From assembly GCA_025024175.1 (NCBI GenBank), contig QCXZ01000064.1, positions 37,097,325-37,161,324 on the forward strand: a stretch of 64,000 nt of DNA, given 5' to 3'. The translations under genes and the position numbers were made by a program. The first letter of the stretch is position 1. The number at the start of each line of letters is the position of its first letter. The notes below the pieces were generated by a model. That model worked only from the letters and a program-made list of their open reading frames with translations, searched no databases and was not told the DNA's origin. Below are positions 5,599 through 57,556 of this stretch, piece after piece. The DNA comes from Rhyzopertha dominica. Taxonomy: Eukaryota; Arthropoda; Insecta; Coleoptera; Bostrichidae.

Positions 5599-6735
5599 TT
5601 GGGTACTTTATACAAAAGTATGGTGACATTTAAGTTAAAGGAGGAAAATGCAGCTCCAAAGTTTTTGCGTGCAAGACCCTTGTCATTTGGTATCAAGGCA
5701 AAACTTGAAGCTGAGTTAAAACGATTAATTCATTTAAAAGTACTTAAACAAGTTAATTTTTCGAATTGGGCAACACCACTTGTACCAGTGTTAAAGAAAA
5801 ATGGTTCAATACGTATTTGTGGTGACTTTAAATAAACTATAAACCTAGTTCTAGAAGTCGACCAGTTTCTTCTGCCGCATATCAAAAATCTCTTTGTGAC
5901 GTTGAGTGGAGCCACAACTTGTTCTAAAATAGATTTATCACAAGCGTACAACCAGTTGTGTCTTGATGATAAGTCAAAAGAGTTGGTGACAGTGTCAATG
6001 CACAAGGGACTTTTTCGCTACGAAAAATTACCCTTTGGGGTGGCCTGTGCACAGAAAATAATTGAGCCGCTTCCGAGTGCTATTGAAAGGGTCGTATACT
6101 TTTTAGATGATATGTTAGTTTGTGGCCGTTGTGTGGAGGGAAATGTCACACGACATGAACTAGTTTTATCAAGACTACAAGAAGCAGGGTTAAAAGTTTC
6201 CATTGATAAGTGTAGTTTTTTTGAGAATCGCGTGGAATATTTAGGATACGTAATCGATTAAGATGGATTGCATACTTCATCAAAAAAGATCGAGGCAATT
6301 CAATACGCTCCGGAGCCCACTAATTTAACAGAACTAAAATCGTTGTTAGGGTTAATTAATTACTATGGGAAATTTGTTCCTAATTTAGCGACAGTCTTAG
6401 CTCCTTTATATAAGCTAATGAAAAAAGATATTCAATGGGAGTGGAACTCCGCTTGCCAAACCGCATTAAATAAGGTTAAACATTTATTGACACGTGCGCC
6501 GATAACACACTTCACCCGGACAAACCGATTAAATTGACAACTGATGCGAGTTCGGTCTGCGTAGGTGCGATGATTTCTCATATTTTACTGGGTAATGAAG
6601 AAAAGCTGATTGCATATGCATCTGGCACTTTGTCCGAAACTCAACGTGGTTGGAGTCAGATTGAAAAAGAAGCTTATGCGATCGTTTTTGGACTAACTAA
6701 ATTTCACCAGTATTTGTATGCTAGAAAATTTTAAT
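5599..6735 (+). pseudogene. gypsy reverse transcriptase and RNase H, broken
   Basis: Reverse transcriptase blocks appear in order: VPVLKKNGSIRICGDFK ending in a stop at 5833-5835, TCSKIDLSQAYNQL with the first catalytic Asp near 5930, FRYEKLPFGVA, and YFLDDMLV near 6100-6120, with both active-site aspartates kept. After a stop near 6259 the connection domain reads LLGLINYYGKFVPNL, then RNase H begins TTDASSVCVGAMIS and runs on through QIEKEAYAIVFGL to a stop near 6734. The enzyme would copy element RNA into DNA. At least three stops or frameshifts interrupt it. Confidence 0.85.
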
Positions 6736-17950: not shown

Positions 17951-19317
17951 TTAGTCATTAGCACTGGGCAATACACAAATCTTGGTAATGCCTCTTTTAA
18001 AAGTTCCAGACACTGTTTTTACACTAACTGTTCGTATTTTGTTATCTTCTTCCGGATACACCTTAACAATTCTTCCTCTTTGCCATTGTAAATGTGGCAA
18101 ATTATCCTCCTTTAGAATGACCAAGTCCCCGACTTTTGGAGGNGCTGCTGCGTTGCCTTTCCACTTGCTTCGTTGTTGCAGCTCTGTCAAATACTGTTTT
18201 GACCATTTCTTCCAGAAATTTTGCTTCAATCGTTCTGTGTATTGCCATCTTGATAACGTATTTAAAGCTAGTGGTTGCAAATTAGGCTCTACTGGTGCCA
18301 TTAACGATTCACCAATAAGAAAATGTGCAGGGGTAAGGATCGAAAAGTCATTTGGATCGGAAGAAAGGGAGTTTAAAGGACGCGAATTTAGACAGGCTTC
18401 GATGCTTACAAGTATAGTATACATCTCTTCGTATGTTAAAAGTGCATTTCCGACAATTCTTTTAAAATGATATTTGAACGATTTAATTGCTGCCTCCCAC
18501 AGACCTCCAAAATGAGGGGTTCTGGGTGGTATAAAGTGCCAGATAATATTAATTTTCAAAAGTTCTTTGTTTACCTCAGTTTTTGCAAGTTGTGATGAAA
18601 AAATGTTCAAATCTTTATTGGCACGAACAAATGTAGTTTGATTGTCAGAAAACAGATTTGCTATATAACCGCGTCTAGCTATCATCCTTTTTAATGTGCT
18701 TAAAAAACTGTCAGCTGTTAAATCAGTAACTAGTTCTAAGTGGACTGCCTTAGTGGCGAAACATACAAACAAAACGACATACGCCTTTATGATTCGTTTT
18801 CCTCGTCCTTTACTTTCTTTTATGTTGAAAGGTCCGGCATAATCGACTCCGCAGTTTAAGAATGGCCTTGCTGGCTCTACACGGTGTTTAGGTAAATTTC
18901 CCATCAGTTCCGTACAATTTTTAGGTGAATTGCGATAACATATTATGCATTCATGTAACAACTGTCGTGTAACATTCTTTGCTGAGGTTATCCAGAACGC
19001 TTGTCTCAGAGAACTTAATGTAGCCGTAATACCGGCATGTAAAAGGCGTTTGTGTTCTTTGAGGACCAAAAGTTTAGAAACATGTGATTTTCCAGGCAAA
19101 AGTATAGGACGTTTTTGGTTATACTGTATGTGTGGTGCATATTTAAGTCTGCCACCAACTCGGAGTAAACCATCTTCACTTACAAATGGATTTAGGGACA
19201 GAATATGACTGTTGCGTTCTAGTGATTTACCAGCCTTTAACTTACTTATTTCAGTTTTATATTCAATAGCTTGAACTGTCTTAATTATGAAAAGCTGAGC
19301 GTCGTGTACCTCATTTA
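17951..19317 (-). pseudogene. BEL pol, integrase part
   Basis: On the minus strand the frame is open from about 19317 to a TAA at 17951. It starts with TVNEVHDAQLF, passes LLRVGGRLKYA, and carries the HHCC zinc domain (EHKRLLHAG, then CIICYRN). The catalytic core has its three acidic residues: GVDYAGPF (D), LFSDNQTTF (D) and FGGLWEAAIKS (E). A BEL-type C-terminal domain follows (PPKVGDLVILKEDN, LQWQRGRI) and the protein ends LPSAND. SDNQTTF departs from the usual SDNGTNF. One unknown residue comes from the N near 18143. A frameshift near 19318-19335 cuts it off from RNase H. The integrase itself could still be intact. Confidence 0.9.
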
Positions 19318-19776
19318 CAGTAAGTGGAATGTTAATTTATTTTTGTTCTTTAAGTTGTGTACAAATCTTAAAACATAAGCGAAGACTCGTTGAAGTTTAT
19401 TAAAGTCAGGAAAACGTTCAAAAATTTGCAATAATTCCGTCTGATTAGCGATAGAAACAGAACAGAAGTTTACTACCCGCCTTTCAGGTATGTCATTTGC
19501 GTTTTTTAGGGCTTCCTTTGGAACTACCGTATTCGGTCCGTTCCACCACAAATCTAAGCTAATTAATTTGTGTAAAGTGGTGCCTCGTGAAATGAGATCG
19601 GCGGGGTTATTTTTTGAATTGACGTAATGCCATTGAGAATAATCACTGTAATTTTGAATTTCTGCGACTCGGTGAGCAACAAATACTTTCCAATTGTGAG
19701 GGGCTTCAGCGAGCCAAGAAAGAACAATTTTTGAATCTGTGTAGTATTCAGTACGATTTATTTTTAAAAGAGGCAA
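19315..19776 (-). pseudogene. BEL pol, RNase H part, frameshifted
   Basis: This frame carries EYYTDSKIVLSWL, HRVAEIQ, WHYVNSKNNPADLISRG and LWWNGP, the RNase H C-terminal half and the BEL linker before integrase. It is one frame away from the upstream gag-RT frame (shift within about 19765-19790, beside runs of T and A) and one frame away from integrase. It has no proper ATG, as expected for an internal piece of a polyprotein. Both shifts are of the same type and sit near homopolymers, so draft-assembly error is a fair alternative to true mutation. Confidence 0.85.
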
Positions 19777-22700
19777 GATTGCAATTTATTTACGAGTTTA
19801 ACTAGCAAGACTGCTGCGCAGAGTTCTAGTTTTGGAATTGTAATGGTTTTTAAGGGTGTGACCTTTGATTTTGCTGCAACTAAATGTTGCGTTACATTTC
19901 CTTCATTATCTGTAGATTTTAAGTATACGCAAGCGCCGTATGCCTTTTCCGAGGCATCTGAAAATCCCAGCAGTTCAAAGTTGGTTGCTTTAATTGTGGA
20001 TATATGTCTTGGGATATTAATGTTGGTCAAATGAATAAACTGAGATATAAAGTGTTGCCACTCTATTGCGATTTCTTTAGGTACTCGTTCTTCCCAGGTT
20101 AATTTGGAAGACCACAATTTTTGCATGATTATTTTTGCTGTCACTATAATAGAACCGATTAAACCCAGAGGATCAAACAATTGAGATATAGTGCTCAAGA
20201 TCTGACGTTTGGTAATGATTTCAGATGTCGCAAATGACTTACTGCAATATTTTAATTCATCATTATGACAGTTCCAAACAAGACCCAAAGTTTTAGTTTC
20301 ACCTTGCTGATCTAGAGAAATTGTTGTAGGGGAGTTATTGTGTAATGGTAATAATTCGTTTTGGATTGACGCCCATTGGCGTAGTTCAAATCCCCCCAGT
20401 CCTAGTATGTAATTTAAATCATCGCGTAGTTTGATGGCTGATTCAATATCGTTGGTGCCAGTCAACAGATTTTCCACATAGAAATCTCGTAATATTATAT
20501 TTGACGCGAAGTTTGCGTAATCGCTTGAGTCCATAGCTAACTGACAAAGAGCTCTGATTGCTAGGTATGGCGAAGCAGCCAAACCAAACGTTACAGTTTT
20601 AAGGCGATATGTTGTAATGGAGTCTTCAGAATTATCTCTCCACAATATTCTCTGGTAATCCCGATGCATTGGATCGACTAGCACTTGTCGATACATTTTG
20701 CTTATATCCGCGGCTAGTACATATGCATGTGTGCGAAATCTAATTAGTATTGAAAACAGGTCGTCTTGTACAGTTGGACCTACCATGAGAGTGTCGTTCA
20801 AACTAATTCCTGTAGTGGTTTTTGCGGAACCGTCAAAAACAATGCGCGTTTTGCTTGTTAAACTATCTTCCTTTATAACCGCGTGATGAGGTAAATAGTA
20901 TGAACGCGGGTTGGACAGCTCATTAGGAGGAACAATTTCGATATGTCCTAAATCTACGTATTCTTGAATGACCGTTTGATAATCATGTTTTAGTTTTGGA
21001 TTTTTGCTAAGTTTATTTTCCAATGCATAGAAACGTTTGAGGGCCGTAGTTCGAGAGTTTCCCAATTCAGAAATATTATCTTTAAATGGTAATTGTACCA
21101 TAAACCGACCGTTTACTTTACGATGGGTTTTTACAAATAAGTTCTCGCAGGCAACCTCTTCAGCAGACCAGATGTTATTTTCGTGGTAGGTTTCACTTTC
21201 CCAAAATTTGCACATCTGCGTTTTTAAGGTATTGAGATTTACGGTAGTGTTTGCGGTACCAATTGTAGAAGTATTAAATTTACTGTTTATGTTTATGGCA
21301 CCCCCAATAATCCACCCTAATTCGGAGGACTGAAAGAATGGTTGGTTTTTACCCGTCTGAATCCTTTCCGGCTTAATAACCTCCCAAAACGTATCCGCGC
21401 CTAAAAGCAGGTCTACAAGTGCGGGCTCATAAAATTTATCATCCGCAAGCTGCATTTTAATGTTCTCGGGTATTTGTACCTGTTTCGCAGGTATAGGTAT
21501 GATTGGCACGGTAGATGTAATTGTAGGTAAAACAAGACATTCAATAGTTTTGCTAAATTTAGTAAATCGCGATTTAAAAGTAACCCATATTTTGTATTTG
21601 ATTGAACTGGTAACTTCATTGACCCCACACACCGTGACGTCAATTTCAATAAGCTTTAGATCTAGTTTTTTACATACTTCTAGCGTAATAAAATTTGATT
21701 GCGAACCGACGTCTAAAAGAACACGTAATTCGGAATGTGTTTTAGGTACCTGTACAATCGCAGTTGACAACAGCACTTGTTTTGTTGAATCGCTACTAAA
21801 ACAGCTAGTAGTTGCCGTAGTTGGTGTTATTTTATTTTCTTCATGATTTTTAGAAATTGAATTTGTAATTGCGTCAGAATTGTGCAATAATGTATGATGG
21901 CGTTTGTTGCATACACGGCAATTAACACGACCTTTACAGTTACTTGTAAAATGATTGGATTTTAGGCAGTTCTTGCATAGTTTAAAGTCTTGTGAAATTT
22001 TAAATCGATCAGTAACACTTAAATTTTTGAATTCTTCACATTCCCCGATGTTGTGAGAATCCTTGCATAGAATGCATTTTATTAAATTGTTGTTAGCCGT
22101 AACGTGGAGGACATTACGAGGTGTATTAAATTTACGAAAAGTATGCTGGTTAGGTTGAACAGATACAACTGATTTAGTGTTTTTGTCTATCCCTAACGAC
22201 TCTAAGATCTTACAACGTTTGTTTAAGTATTCCATAAACTCTTGGAACGTGGGAATATCCTTTAAGTTGGTTTCTTCCCATTCGCGTTTTGAATTAAAAT
22301 CAAGTTTCTGAAGTATAATATGAATCAATAAAACGTCCCATTTGTCAGTTGGTAAATCTAGATTCTTTAGAACTTTGATATGTAAATTAACACTATCAAC
22401 AAGGTTTCTTAAACTGCTTGCAGTAGCTTTACTTATAGTGGGCAATTCAAACAAAGCATTAAGGCGATTTTTTATTATTAATCGTTTGTTGTGATATCTT
22501 TCCGTTAAGAGATCTAATGCAATTTGAAAATTTTCGGATGTAGTTGGTAATGTAGAAATTAGGTTAGCAGCTTCATTTTTTAAGCACGATTTTAAATAAT
22601 TTAGTTTTTGAAAGTCTTTTAGGTTTGGTTCATTGTGTATCATTGACATGAATATTTCATGAAAATTTAACCATTGCTCATGTGTACCGTCAAAAGTAGG

Positions 22701-23084
22701 TAGTGATATAGATGGCAATTTTAGATGTGACGGCAGATTGTCATTAGATACAGATGAATTTTCACTTATAGTTGCGGCTTGCAAATGTTGACTGGATTCA
22801 AAATGGCTAATGATTTCTTGTACTTCAGTGCAAGTATCATAATATGCGTTTTCAAACTCATCTCTGTGATGATCTTGATTAGGATCGAGTAGCTCAATCT
22901 TAGCTTGAATTTGATCAAATTGATTTAGTATGTCTGTAAAGTTTTCATAACGAATTTTCAAGTTTAAAATCTGTTTTCTGTCAGGATTTTCAATGTTACG
23001 CACAAAATTGCAAAATTTTGTTAACTTTGATTTAAATACAGTTCGATTGCCAATTAAAGGGGTTAATTCTTCTTTGGATGTCAT
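19764..23084 (-). pseudogene. BEL gag-protease-RT polyprotein, catalytic residues changed
   Basis: A 1106-codon frame starts at ATG 23084. Gag covers roughly residues 1-330, including the FDGTHEQWLNFHEIF block of the DUF1759 region. Three zinc-binding clusters follow near residues 335-405 (CILCKDSHNIGEC, CKNCLKSNHFTSNC, CRVCNKRHHTLLH). The protease loop near residue 455 reads LLDVGSQSNFIT, keeping Asp but with V where S or T is normal. Reverse transcriptase runs from about residue 740: IVFDGSAK, YVLAADISKMYRQV (first catalytic Asp), VTFGLAASPYLA, then FYVENLLTG near residue 866, where YVDD is expected. RNase H starts near residue 1040 (FSDASEKAYGACVY) and the frame stops at 19764 by frameshift. 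Enzyme activity is doubtful. Confidence 0.93.
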
Positions 23085-23224
23085 TATTTATTGTGTTTAA
23101 AGAAAATGGTAAGGTATGTATACTATATGCTTGCAAGAATGAGGTCGTAATGACAAAAGGTAAAAAATGGTAAGAAAATAGGAGAGCACTGACCTTGTTT
23201 ATGGCGAATTCTTGCTCTTCTTGA

Positions 23225-27702: not shown

Positions 27703-27751
27703 TAAATTGTATCAAAATGCATGTCTATGCTGTGCTGTCTACACCTCAACC

Positions 27752-27800
27752 AACTGCAGGTAGATCTATTTCGCTGTCATTACAGCTCATCAGTGCAGTT
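27752..27800 (-). ncRNA. Hammerhead ribozyme, unit 1, predicted inactive
   Basis: The minus strand has stem I AACUGCA/UGCAGUU, core CUGAUGA, stem II GCUGU/ACAGC with loop AAUG, then GAA and a stem III palindrome. At the cleavage triplet the base that should be U16.1 is C (plus-strand G at 27760), giving ACC in place of AUC and breaking its pair with A15.1. All other core bases fit. Loss of cleavage is predicted. Confidence 0.85.
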
Positions 27801-28103
27801 TAGGTCTAGTGTAGACAGCACGGCATAGAACTAGCTTTGCTTATATACCAAAGCAATGGTATGATGTAAGTAACAATTTAGNATGGCAATGCCATCTGTC
27901 AGCATTACACTGACATCATGGCAAAGCCACCTAGCTGCCTTAACGGGTACTACTTCCTAAAGGAAGTGACTTGTAGCCTGACAAATTGGCATGCAACTGC
28001 ATACTTCAATTTGACAGCAGGCCCCCACGGCACTTTATACTAGCGGACAAGAACCGACATACATTAAAATGCATGTCTATACTGTGCTGTCTACAACTCA
28101 ACC

Positions 28104-28152
28104 AACTGCAGATAGATCTATTTCGCTGTCATTACAGCTCATCAGTGCAGTT
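28104..28152 (-). ncRNA. Hammerhead ribozyme, unit 2, intact core
   Basis: Reading the minus strand: stem I 5' strand AACUGCA (28152-28146), core CUGAUGA (28145-28139), stem II GCUGU/ACAGC closed by AAUG, GAA, stem III AUAG/CUAU closed by two bases, then cleavage triplet AUC and the stem I 3' strand UGCAGUU. Cleavage is predicted between 28111 and 28110. Outer sequences (GUGCUGU.../...ACAGCAC) pair further and lengthen stem I beyond an internal loop. This is the type I layout with minimal stem III, as in newt, schistosome and insect satellite hammerheads, which often work as dimers. Confidence 0.92.
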
Positions 28153-28450
28153 TAGGTCTAGTGTAAACAGCACGGCATAGAACTGATTTTGCTTATATAC
28201 CAAAGCAATGGTATGATGTAACACTTTAGGGTGCAATGCCATCTGTCAGCATTACACTGACATAATGACAAAGCCACCTAGCTGCCTTAGCGGGTACTAA
28301 TTCCTAAAGGAAGTGACCTGTAGCCTGACAAATTGGCATGCAACTGTATACTTCAATTTGACAGCAGGCCCACACGGCACTTTTTACTAGCGGGCAAGAA
28401 CCGACATACATTAAAATGCATGTCTATACTGTGCTGTCTACAACTCAACC

Positions 28451-28499
28451 AACTGCAGATAGATCTATTTCGCTGTCATTACAGCTAATCAGTGCAGTT
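28451..28499 (-). ncRNA. Hammerhead ribozyme, unit 3, predicted inactive
   Basis: Same layout as unit 2, with AUC cleavage triplet and paired stems, but the core reads CUGAUUA in place of CUGAUGA (plus-strand A at 28487). This replaces G8, the base that acts in catalysis, so cleavage should be lost. The distance from the unit 2 cleavage position is 347 bp. Confidence 0.88.
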
Positions 28500-28801
28500 T
28501 AGGTCCAGTGTAGACAGCACGGCATAGAACTGGTTTTGCTTATATACCAAAGCAATGGTATGATGTAAGTAACAATTTAGGATGCAATGCCATCTGTTAG
28601 CATTACACTGACATGATGACAAAGCCACCTAGCTGCCTTAACGGGTACTACTTCTTAAAGGAAGTGACCTGTAGCCTGACAAACTGGCATTCAACTGCAT
28701 ACTTCAATTTGACAGCAGGCCCCCACGGCACTTTTTACTAGCAGGCAAGAACCGACATACATTAAAATGCCTGTCTATACTGTGCTGTCTACAACTCAAC
28801 C

Positions 28802-28850
28802 AACTGCAGATAGATCTATTTCGCTGTCATTACAACTCATCAGTGCAGTT
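28802..28850 (-). ncRNA. Hammerhead ribozyme, unit 4, intact core
   Basis: Core CUGAUGA, GAA and AUC triplet are all present, and stem I AACUGCA/UGCAGUU is perfect. One stem II change (C to U on the minus strand) leaves a G-U pair, so the helix is kept. Cleavage is predicted between 28809 and 28808, which is 351 bp from the unit 3 position. Confidence 0.9.
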
Positions 28851-29037
28851 TAGGTCTAGTGTAGACAGCACGGCATAGAACTGGTTTTGCTTATATATCA
28901 AAGCAATGGTATGATGTAAGTAAGAATTTAGGATGGCAATGCCGTCTGTCGGCATTACACTGACATGATGACAAAGCCACCTAGCTGCCTTAACGGGTGC
29001 TACTTCCTAAAGGAAGTGACCTGTAGCCTGACAAATT

Positions 29038-29165
29038 GAAGTATGTAGTTGCATGCCAATTTGTCAGGCTACAGGTCACTTCCTTTAGAAAGCTAGGTGC
29101 TAGGTGGCTTTGTCATCATGTCAGTGTAATGCTGACAGATGGCATTGCCATGCTAAATTCTTACT
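29038..29165 (+). repeat. Inverted partial unit closing the array
   Basis: From 29038 the sequence is the reverse complement of the unit segment that runs from GTAAGAATTTAGGATGGCAA to the CATGCAACTGCATACTT block, with a small rearrangement near 29090-29100. It ends TAAATTCTTACT right at the 14-bp direct repeat. It lacks the ribozyme. Together with the last direct unit it can fold into a hairpin of more than 100 bp. Confidence 0.85.
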
Positions 29166-29179
29166 TAAATTGTATCAAA

Positions 29180-34444: not shown

Positions 34445-34457
34445 CTAACTCTTTTAT

Positions 34458-34843
34458 TAAAATGCATGTCTATGCTGTGCTGTCTACACCTCAACCAACT
34501 GCAGATAGTACTATTTCGCTGTCATTACAGCTCATCAGTGCAGTTTAGGTCTAGTGTATACAACACGGCATAGAACTGGTTTTGCTTATATACCAAAGCA
34601 ATGGTATGATGAAAGTAAGAATTTAGGATGGCAATGCCATCTGTCAGCATTACACTGACATGATGACAAAGCCCAAATGCCGTGGGGGCCTGCTGTCAAA
34701 TTGAAGTATGCATTTGTATGCAAATTTGTCAGGCTACAGGTCACTTCCCTTAGGAAGTAGTACCCGTTAAGGCAGCTAGGTGGCTTTGTCATCATGTCAG
34801 TGTAATGCTGACAGATGGCATTGCCATCCTAAATTCTTACTTT
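34458..34843 (-). mobile_element. Retrozyme-like element, single unit with inverted end
   Basis: It has the same start (AAAATGCATGTCTATGC) and the same outer end (TAAATTCTTACTTT) as the array at 27717, but one unit only. After 34673 it turns into an inverted partial unit. CTAACTCTTTTAT (13 bp) lies outside both ends (34445-34457 and 34844-34856). Two independent insertions with shared termini and different 13-14 bp duplications show a mobile family. The perfect inverted stretch GTAAGAATTTAGGATGGCAA to AAAGCC and back spans about 60 bp per arm. Confidence 0.9.
34497..34545 (-). ncRNA. Hammerhead ribozyme, dispersed copy, intact core
   Basis: Minus strand: AACUGCA, CUGAUGA, GCUGU/AAUG/ACAGC, GAA, stem III AUAG/CUAU with UA as the two-base turn (AU in the array units), AUC triplet, UGCAGUU. 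All catalytic positions match the consensus. Cleavage is predicted between the bases at 34504 and 34503. The outer stem I is weakened by UAUACAACAC in place of UAGACAGCAC. Confidence 0.9.
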
Positions 34844-35055
34844 CTAACTCTTTTATATTAAAAACGAAATAGGAAATATTTATTCATATTTATTTAAAAG
34901 TTAATGCGTAAAAATGATATTGTGTGTGATTAATATAAATATGTTGTAGATATATCTGTAGAGATTTGTGACATGGCTGCCATTAACATTTCTTTATATA
35001 ACTTAATAAGAATCACAATTTAAAGGCCTCTGTCAGGAAAGTTTTCACATTTTTC

Positions 35056-35736: not shown

Positions 35737-35879
35737 AAACATACCAAGCCTTTGGTATATAGGCAAAACCAGTTCTATGCCGTGCTGTCTACACTGATGA
35801 GCTATAATGATAGCGAAATAGATTTATCTGCAGTTGGTTGCGGTGCAGACAGCACAGCATAGACATTCATTTTAATGGT
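35737..35879 (+). mobile_element. Retrozyme-like fragment in the opposite orientation
   Basis: The segment from ACATACCAAGCCTTTGGTATATA to GCATAGACATTCATTTTA is homologous to the reverse complement of the array unit around its ribozyme. The rest of the unit is missing on both sides, and no flanking duplication is visible. It is the most diverged copy, yet it keeps the ribozyme core. Confidence 0.85.
35794..35836 (+). ncRNA. Hammerhead ribozyme, plus-strand copy with compensatory stem II
   Basis: Plus strand: CUGAUGA at 35794-35800, stem II GCUAU/AUAGC with loop AAUG, GAA at 35815-35817, stem III AUAG/UUAU with a G-U pair, triplet AUC, then UGCAGUUGG. Stem II differs from the array (GCUGU/ACAGC) at two positions that remain paired. 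The AACUGCA strand of stem I and the bases before it are deleted, but GUGCUGUCU and AGACAGCAC still pair outside the core, so a stem I with a changed internal loop is possible. Confidence 0.85.
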
Positions 35880-54723: not shown

Positions 54724-57556
54724 AAACAAGCTTTCAATCTCTGGCTGCGAAAGCTGACGTCCTTTATAAATTATAACTAGTTTAATTTTCAATGTGTCTG
54801 AACTTGCTTGGTGGCTTTTCAGTCGCTTTTTCTTATACATGTCTAAACGTTAAATAAACGTCCGCATTTCTACAACCATTCTTTCTGGCGCTTTCGGTAG
54901 CTGAAGTATTTTTGTTTGTAACAACTGTACCGGTAGCCTAAGGTTAGTGTATAATATAAGCTATTAATACATTAAATTGCACTACTATACAGCTTAAATG
55001 TAGATTTACTTTATTCTTTACTGCTGGGACACAAGAGCGTAACCAGCGATTAGTTAGTATGTCACAGAAATAAGCTATCAGGTAATCTGTATCATATATC
55101 AAAACATTGACATATCGAATCACGTTCTGATTATCATCGGTATATCAATGTACAGAAATTATGGTATGTTAATTATCGCGTTAAATCCAGAATACACACC
55201 GATGACAAAATGCGTCCAAAAGTTTGCTGATACACCAGTTTTAAAATGTCTCGATCAGTTTCGCCTTTATTAGCGCTCGTAAGTGCAGTTTAGGTCTAAT
55301 GCAGATACATATTTCATCTCAATGTTTTGCTAATAGCTTTAGTTCTATGGCNAACAGTTAATATAGCAAGTAAAACAATGCAGTAACGACCGATGGGAAA
55401 TCATCAGGTTATTATAGTTGCCCGATTTCATCATTTGAATGCCGTCCGTGAAGGCCTAAGCTAATAGCTAATACAAAAACTAATTAAATTCATAATAATA
55501 AAATTACATCTTTAGTTCTCCACAGAGACGAGTGGATAATATCAAATTGCCACTAGATGATATCCTAATTTTCGCATAAATTAAATTCATGTCACAGGAT
55601 GTTACATATTGTAAAAGAGCTGTAACACGTTTGCACCTTCTTCTAAGTTCTAAACTGGCTATAAATACAACTTGCGGTATGCTTTACTGTTACTATCCTC
55701 CCATATGTACGTGATAAAGAAAATTTTTTAACACATTTCTAACTTACTAAGGGACAATGACTCTGCGCGTATACATTTTAATAAACAAGTGATCAGCACT
55801 TGATTTAAAAACAAATTGTAAGTTCAATTTTATTTTCTTGAGAAGTCGGATATGCTCGCTAAAAGAATGAAATTGACATATNTTCCGGGGGTACACTCGA
55901 ATATCCGCGGGGTTGTAAGCGTAATTCATTAACGTCGGTGATGCTTTACAACAGTAGACATAAACATTGCAATATCTACTTACTAATTTTCTTTCTATTC
56001 AACCCCAAACAAGACACTAACTACATACTTTCGAAAATCATGCAACCGTTTCCACCATTACCACATTCGCTGGTTATAAACATACAGATATATTGCTGTA
56101 ATTCTTGTTTGCGTTGAAAGGTCGCGTTGTAAATTTTCTGTATCTCGGCTTTCTCCACTTCCTGATTTGCTCCAGCCACTTTCGTATGCATGGAACTTGC
56201 TGCGTCTGAGTTGTATTTATGTCTGAAAATTCAAAATACAATTGCCGCTGGCGCTCACGGCGAAGTTATGTACCTACAAATTCCCTTAATGAGTGCGCCG
56301 GTTCGACCCGAAGAAATAACAACGAGCGATCGGAAGTTTCTTTATATCAGAACACTCGTTAGGCAGTGATAGTATGTCGTACTTTCTCTTTTTGTCCAGG
56401 ACAGCGTAGGGCGATTGGGAGGGGATAGGGAGCGAAGGTTTAGCTTTGGGGGCCTTGGTTATTTGTGTCCATTAACCTGGAAAACTCACGAAGACATGTT
56501 CTTAAAGGGTTGTTATTGCTCTACTGCGGACCTAGTTCAGTGGTGTCTGTAGAAATCGATAGCTAAAGCGGCTGCAGTTCACTTAATTGATTAGATAACG
56601 TTTACCCTACGGATCAGTCGCTATTAGTGCAATCCTGGCATGATTTACTAAAACATGTATACAGGGTAATTGATTTGCGCAGTCCTTAATTGCGCTTTCT
56701 GGTTGCTCATATGTATAATTTATTCGAGAGCTAAACTTGGAATTGCAAGCTATCTAAGGGAAGTTTTTTCTAGACGTACAGTTAAAGTAGAGACGGCCTT
56801 ATGGGTCAGGCCATTCGATGGAAAAACTTAAGTTGGAGTTTTATTCGACCCATACAAAGCGACGGGACGGCGAATATAATTGCATTAATTATCAACGTTT
56901 ATTGAAATTTATTTCCTATATTACCCTTATTTGATCAGTCACTGGAAAAGAAAATTCTTGGTACAACTGGCAATACAGTATAAAACAATACAATATTGTG
57001 ATAACAGCATGGAGTAACTATCGTGTTATTGCGGCAGAATATTGCAAAACCGATAATCGAATATAATTAAATTCAATAAATGGAAATGCTCCAAATGTGT
57101 AAAGTGTTACTTTTTGTAGATCGTTGATAAGTGTAATATTGTTTTCTTCGCATTTCTGAGGTACGCCTTGTCAAATCATCCCGCAACTTGTAACGAAGTG
57201 GAAGTGTAAGACTCATGAACTTCTTCCTTAATAAACTTTAACCTGCTAGAACACAATGGTTTGATAAATAGTGCATGTGCACATATTCTCACATGTAAAC
57301 CGGTTAATGTTTCTTTTTATTAGCATGCCACTTTCCTTCACACACCATTATGCGAGCTACAATCTAAGTTGTATCGGTATTGCTTCTGCTATGCACTGCC
57401 ATCGGGGAGGCTGTGTGATCCACAAGCGAGAAAGCGTTATTAAATTATACTTTATACACTTATAAGCAAGTGGTTTATTTATACATATATGTATTGTAGA
57501 CTACAGCTTTTTTACGTAATTATAAACAAACTTCAAAACGACGTCATCAATATAGT
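54724..57556. other. Unassigned sequence with a small retrozyme relic
   Basis: AGTGCAGTTTAGGTCTAATG and the next four bases (55281-55304) match the ribozyme-flanking part of the 350-bp unit at 22 of 24 positions; the core beside it is decayed. Otherwise no gene or repeat is recognised. Ambiguous bases lie at 55352 and 55882. Confidence 0.4.

Follow-up and report, generated by a model that had tools for sequence, protein, structure and literature searches.

The array locus

At 27714-29038 of the window, by which we mean the whole 64,000-nucleotide stretch of DNA that was analysed, lies a tandem repeat of period 351, which TRF resolves into 3.8 copies with 94% matches. These 3.8 direct units of about 351 bp, whose hammerhead sense is that of the minus strand, make up one arm of an insertion, the A arm (27717-29038; TRF and BLAST), with an outer end of class A. 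Head to head with it stands the B arm (29028-29165, plus strand), an inverted partial unit with an outer end of class B, recognised by an inverted BLAST match and by the junction. Both arms are enclosed by an exact 14-bp target-site duplication (TSD), TAAATTGTATCAAA, found at 27703-27716 with CGCAA directly 5' of it and at 29166-29179 with GGTTTT directly 3'. The original prediction had noticed this direct repeat, and it occurs at 27703 and 29166 and nowhere else in the window. The same prediction had taken all of 27717-29165 as an array; the tandem hammerhead units are real, but the last ~138 bp (~29028-29165) are the inverted arm and not array. Its proposal that the array was inserted as a unit is borne out, and two recurrent ends, inverted arms and a plan like that of Penelope-like elements (PLEs) go further than it did.

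The arm junction (29008-29087) folds into a strong hairpin, which is matched by several of Rfam's miRNA models, in each case below the gathering score. We judge the miRNA reading of these matches to be an artefact, given the sub-gathering scores and the palindromic arm junction.

The window holds further copies of the element that had escaped the original prediction. A second A/B copy (34458-34843, minus strand; BLAST and sequence) has its own 13-bp TSD and with it spans 34445-34856. The left TSD, CTAACTCTTTTAT, is at 34445-34457 with AAAC directly 5', the right at 34844-34856 (sequence); the minus-strand hammerhead core lies at 34538 and its stem III reads AUAGUACUAU. There are also two fragments: a truncated third copy on the plus strand (35741-35876; BLAST and sequence), with a core of the GCTAT/ATAGC type and the inner stem I partly missing, and an old piece of the hammerhead region (55253-55335; BLAST) at about 70-79% identity. 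Among the neighbours, reading frames of 1107 and 461 aa on the minus strand at 17951-23087 look by eye like the polyprotein of a BEL/Pao-type LTR retrotransposon, and a 141-aa frame on the plus strand at 5836-6261 looks by eye like a fragment of a gypsy-type reverse transcriptase.

The hammerhead and its constraint

How intact are the hammerheads of the array? The stems are those first described: stem I of AACUGCA/UGCAGUU, stem II of GCUGU/ACAGC with an AAUG loop, stem III of AUAG/CUAU, and the outer helix is present. In the predicted secondary structure stem I is the open helix, which makes this a type I hammerhead. A hammerhead covariance model had been expected to find the units. It does find four minus-strand matches (Rfam HH9, 24.3-28.8 bits), but all are below the gathering score of 52, and their E-values (1.1e-4 to 3.2e-3) refer to a 1.7-kb search. 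In the Rfam scan of the window zero families reached the gathering score, the best array match being the 28.8 bits for HH9.

Unit 2 (28091-28161, minus strand; 28.8 bits, E 1.1e-4) has an intact core, as does unit 4 (28789-28859, minus strand; 24.9 bits, E 0.0021), which has one G-U pair in stem II. In unit 1 (27739-27809, minus strand; 24.3 bits, E 0.0032) the cleavage triplet is altered (CTACC, U16.1 changed), and in unit 3 (28438-28508, minus strand; 25.8 bits, E 0.0011) the core reads CTGATTA (G8 changed). A competent core in all four units, as the prediction had it, is not what we find; at the core positions inspected, units 2 and 4 alone show no change. Because the core is intact in these two alone, the regular cutting of a transcript into monomers of about 350 nt is not expected for the array copy.

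Compared with 60 shuffles the majority unit has the better fold (z -7.4 as linear, -8.6 as circular RNA), with a long hairpin round the hammerhead. The ten bases of stem III read ATAGATCTAT in 93 of 127 cores and ATAGTACTAT in another 21, and are palindromic in 114; the 127, for which as many as four substitutions were tolerated, are from the window and the loci fetched, those of L077/L045 being counted twice. Counted by eye among the first 100 genome matches listed, the centre of stem III is AT in 62, TA in 35 and something else in 3. Two substitutions are needed to turn AT into TA, and they leave the palindrome intact. The covariation score is 0.080 against 0.051 for shuffled cores (0/500), slid controls giving 0.039 at most. 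This was measured on 51 of 53 distinct cores, two with a one-base deletion being left out, and the stem III centre, although its bases are adjacent, was entered as a pair standing for the palindrome. Stem II shows a change of GC to AU in 3 of the 51. Two of five covariation measures, double-change pairs and further pair types, do not stand above the shuffles (227/500 and 196/500). The double changes in stem III suggest selection on the ribozyme, as support and not as proof, for related copies can beat shuffles without structure.

By analogy, the self-complementary minimal stem III may belong to a hammerhead that works best as a dimer. Dimeric working has been reported for amphibian hammerhead repeats (PMC7229834). 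Those of newt and axolotl, as given through that source, are alike in their short helix III and palindromic tetraloop and cleave better as dimers; they differ in sequence, and the portion of the account drawn on here does not mention paired-arm insertions.

Copies in the genome

The assembly searched comprises 479 Mb in 138 contigs. It contains 3,318 matches to a 28-base core pattern in which some positions are degenerate, and 0 to the reversed control, so the matches are not chance; the stem III pattern gives 3,616 matches against 0 in the control. The search for other copies that the prediction called for thus finds them, dispersed through the assembly. One unit has at least 107 matches (best 40 of 2,197 candidates scored). 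The core count is not an insertion count, since an insertion may hold several cores. The core pattern is absent from the viral contigs searched, a set that may omit records of the host genome. The majority unit is non-coding, with a GC content of 0.443 and, in the tandem trimer, a longest ATG open reading frame of 42 aa.

Anatomy of the insertions

We compared 74 elements: 39 best-scoring unit-match loci, the first 30 core matches on contig C1, and three window copies. From the contig C1 set 28 of 30 were used, L061 and L070 being left aside because they duplicate L060 and L071; a single locus (A only) is counted twice, as L077 and as L045, and L034 is one locus split in two. Both samples select for a visible unit or core. 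Two-armed head-to-head composites account for 42 of the 74. In unit coordinates (q) the outer end A lies at about 4, immediately on the 3' side of the hammerhead in the RNA sense, and the outer end B, in inverted orientation, at about 158-160, immediately on its 5' side. By end class there are 41 A/B elements, 2 A/A (one of which, the window fragment at 35741, is based on a 5-error match), 1 B/B, 21 with A only, 4 with B only and 5 with neither. A is thus paired with B in 41 of the 44 elements with two defined ends (binomial p 8e-10 under even odds).

A TSD scores above threshold in 29 of the 41 A/B elements and below it in 12. The 29 range from 10 to 17 bp, 13 bp being commonest (13/29). AAC stands directly before the TSD in 11 of the 29 and GTT directly after it in 12, with both in 4, against window backgrounds of 1.9 and 2.0%; the limits of the TSDs have some alignment freedom. 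Since AAC and GTT are complementary, the cut on either strand tends to fall before GTT, often with about 13 bp between the two cuts. This symmetry suggests that the endonuclease is symmetric and dimeric. Among the elements there is wide variation in arm length and in inner junction, TSD length varies as well, and the element junctions displayed are without an A-tail.

Might a transposase have moved the inverted ends, as in a fold-back DNA transposon? Inverted arms and TSDs are what such an element would leave, yet here the outer ends A and B differ in sequence, arm lengths, inner junctions and TSD length are variable, and tandem units occur. We give this account hardly any credence. A second possibility is twin priming, in which a LINE enzyme inserts the RNA and the second strand primes at varied internal sites. 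Head-to-head arms and TSDs of such length are also produced in this way. In our elements, however, the second site is not varied but recurs at B, the displayed junctions have no A-tail, and the target is AAC/GTT-like where that of L1-type elements is TTTT/AA; moreover, the PLE that shares the genome has a like one-tail design, as described below. LINE twin priming is, on balance, improbable.

Form of the template RNA

If the RNA had been cut at the hammerhead before it was copied, what would the arms look like? A hammerhead-cut RNA would stop A arms after about 45 nt. The arms whose partner carries a core form a set free of this selection, for it is then the partner, and not the arm itself, that has been pre-selected. 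Not one arm of this set, out of 15 of class A and 39 of class B, has its end at the cleavage site: 14 A arms and 15 B arms run across it, and the others stop short. Since the arms cross the site without stopping, we conclude that the template RNA is, to judge from these copies, continuous over the hammerhead site, that is, circular or uncut.

We also considered whether arrays end at the cleavage site. Genome-wide there are 18 breaks at this site against 7 at a control position (raw counts), but six of the 18 read ATA and were taken as a one-base deletion; without them the comparison is 12 versus 7 (p 0.18). With no significant excess, and with arms that cross the site, the idea was not borne out.

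Are the two arms of an element copied from the same kind of RNA? Opposite arms have the same stem III centre in all 22 pairs of one set and in all 8 of a second (two loci are in both sets), and among 37 same-arm pairs a single one (L041) is discordant. Opposite arms share 32 of 449 private variants (7.1%) and units of the same arm, L031 excluded, share 44 of 458, as against 729 of 65,518 (1.1%) between loci. By this comparison both arms are from the same kind of RNA; the test of same versus different RNA for the arms has 7 informative sites only.

A further question about arrays is posed by L031, with 10.75 units. Its units 2-10 show period-3 similarity (permutation P 0.0006), but units 1 and 11, at the two ends, do not keep that phase. 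For this reason we rejected rolling-circle copying of a trimeric circle here; expansion at the DNA level fits better, and L031 probably grew by unequal crossing over. Should the whole family then be regarded as satellite DNA spread by unequal crossing over, the hammerhead being a non-functional relic? L031, with its period-3 similarity inside only, looks like just such an expansion, and two of the four array cores are altered. A satellite would, on the other hand, leave unaccounted for the large number of short, scattered copies that carry TSDs and recurrent ends, and a stem III palindrome that survives a double change; we consider it very unlikely.

Comparison with Penelope-like elements

GIY-YIG domains are common in this genome, with at least 144 matches above the cut-off (best 150 of 2,080 candidates scored). 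Among the matches listed, inverted neighbour pairs within 6 kb have their tails outward in 20 of 20 cases, and in one other neighbour pair the two members run the same way. Seven of the 20 inverted pairs were fetched, six of them chosen for the closeness of the two domains. In all seven a tail of about 38 nt, its length measured to a conserved motif and not to the TSD, is present on one arm only, and the tailless arm stops on, or no more than a few bases from, a terminus made of GAAAAA or an A-run. TSDs of 10-15 bp flank all seven (two with one mismatch); AAC precedes the TSD in 3/7, and GTT follows it in 0/7. The larger open reading frame of one pair, L078, encodes RVT_1 and GIY-YIG domains.

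Between the retrozyme unit and the PLE ends BLAST gave no convincing similarity (best E 0.04). A and B are ~155 nt apart in the retrozyme, against ~38 in the PLE, and this spacing shrinks only on folding of the hairpin (graph distance 32). In the predicted RNA fold A and B are weakly favoured as unpaired (P about 0.03). The retrozyme copies follow a plan like that of the PLE, though not identical with it: B is the short end and A the long end, with the hammerhead hairpin at the place of the PLE tail.

The plan has published counterparts. Penelope of Adineta vaga has inverted head-to-head arms, an optional 30-40-bp tail on one of them and, in several rotifer copies, a TSD of 8-10 bp (PMC3846280). 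Poseidon, a PLE of the green anole, cuts and extends both strands in vitro from two internal RNA start sites (PMC11167929). So far as these two reports are drawn on here, Penelope and Poseidon share with our element the head-to-head inverted arms, the tail on one arm and the TSD, and the anole element also the two internal starts. The retrozyme differs from both in having no open reading frame, in carrying a hammerhead between the two start sites and in its AAC/GTT-like target, theirs being ATT (PMC3846280, PMC11167929).

Two side observations concern the PLE ends themselves. In the main PLE family (L078, L079, L081) the sequence AAGACCTAAATTATAGGTCGAAACGTC upstream of the end looks by eye like a degenerate minimal hammerhead; in L097 the Rfam scan at E 0.5 gave no hammerhead. 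L080 and L086 have a second PLE-like type of 3' end, CCCTGAAGAAGATT...GAAAGCTTGG, which is hammerhead-like by eye and has no Rfam match at E 0.5.

Family assignment and proposed mechanism

To which family does the element belong? Animal non-LTR retrozymes, as described by Cervera and de la Pena 2020 (PMC7229834), are tandem 150-450-bp repeats with a type I hammerhead, dispersed, multicopy, non-coding and below 50% in GC, and each of these features is found here; so is a TSD of more than 4 bp, in the 29 A/B elements noted above. The original call, that this is a mobile element of retrozyme-like kind carrying type I hammerheads in tandem, stands, given the many dispersed copies, the TSDs, the lack of coding capacity and the GC of 44%. 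Plant LTR retrozymes have a type III hammerhead and a 4-bp TSD; our element has an open stem I and TSDs of 10-17 bp. With a PLE it has in common the head-to-head arms, the tail on one of them and the TSD, but the open reading frame for reverse transcriptase and GIY-YIG is lacking, no ATG frame exceeding 42 aa. It may work like a PLE, yet is not one. The best reading of its sequence is a non-autonomous animal non-LTR retrozyme with a type I hammerhead.

The likeness to the described animal retrozymes extends to similar unit size in short tandems, low GC, a TSD of more than 4 bp when present, thousands of copies, and PLEs in the same genomes (PMC7229834). They are given there as tandem repeats, and inverted paired arms, two recurrent ends and a target motif are not mentioned in the part of that account used here. 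Among titles and opening lines of abstracts, mostly of papers outside subscription, we did not find the paired A/B arm anatomy in retrozymes. The pDo500 satellite of Dolichopoda cave crickets is likewise an insect repeat with a hammerhead; in the part of the report considered here it differs in being described as a satellite family (PMC2837043).

How, then, might the retrozyme be inserted? We think it quite probable, from the record of the insertions, that we are dealing with an animal non-LTR retrozyme whose insertion is primed in the PLE manner, by both strands of the target and at two sites within the RNA. Its transcripts would carry the type I hammerhead, whose stem III is minimal and palindromic and which perhaps acts best as a dimer, and the RNA to be inserted would be unbroken across the hammerhead site, either as a circle or as uncut RNA. 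The GIY-YIG endonuclease of a PLE-type protein would nick the target on both strands, with a distance of most often about 13 bp between the nicks. The 3' end at each nick would then prime reverse transcription internally, one at A, 3' of the hammerhead hairpin, and the other at B, 5' of it. Joining of the two cDNAs head to head would yield the A...B composite between TSDs, and a cDNA that ran past more than one RNA unit would yield tandem units. In this scheme we infer the PLE as enzyme source, the circularity of the template and the dimeric cleavage.

That PLEs are the mobilisers of retrozymes and circles their intermediates is a published proposal, a hypothesis on the enzyme and on the RNA form that move animal retrozymes (PMC7229834). 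The insertion anatomy now adds evidence: as read here, it supports mobilisation by a PLE and is compatible with circular intermediates. A large number of insertions preserve the starting points of priming, the position of the target cuts and the state of the hammerhead, cut or uncut, and they resemble those of a PLE of the same genome. Two priming sites and one target motif are thereby named, and are directly testable by the published type of PLE assay.

What part would the hammerhead play? In a variant compatible with PLE-type priming, a linear RNA would be used without processing, and the hammerhead would offer a structure to land on instead of acting as a nuclease. Arms that cross the cleavage site would suit such an RNA, and hammerhead mutants of the anole PLE retain insertion in vitro (PMC11167929). 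The double changes in stem III, with the selection on the ribozyme that they suggest, and the abundant circles produced by relatives (PMC7229834) argue the other way. The variant deserves serious consideration, though we incline against it. A different role, on PLE-type priming of a sealed circular RNA, would be that of a clamp: the hammerhead hairpin would join A and B for a dimeric PLE complex that primes both nicked strands. We offer this tentatively and think it rather doubtful. If it were true, the role of the ribozyme in transposition would be to seal and to present the template, in replacement of the PLE tail.

A last observation concerns the ends of contigs. The start of contig C136 (L087, 1-900) consists of CCCGA (= TCGGG) repeats followed by TGTCA-rich repeats, TCGGG being found in 1 of 9 contig-end stretches. 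TCGGG has been reported as the telomere repeat of the darkling beetle (tenebrionid) Dendarus foraminosus (PMC12756591). The host is therefore likely to be a beetle, and the original prediction's placing of the family among insects is plausible. TGACAG/CTGTCA-rich repeats fill both end stretches of contig C3 (L083, L084).
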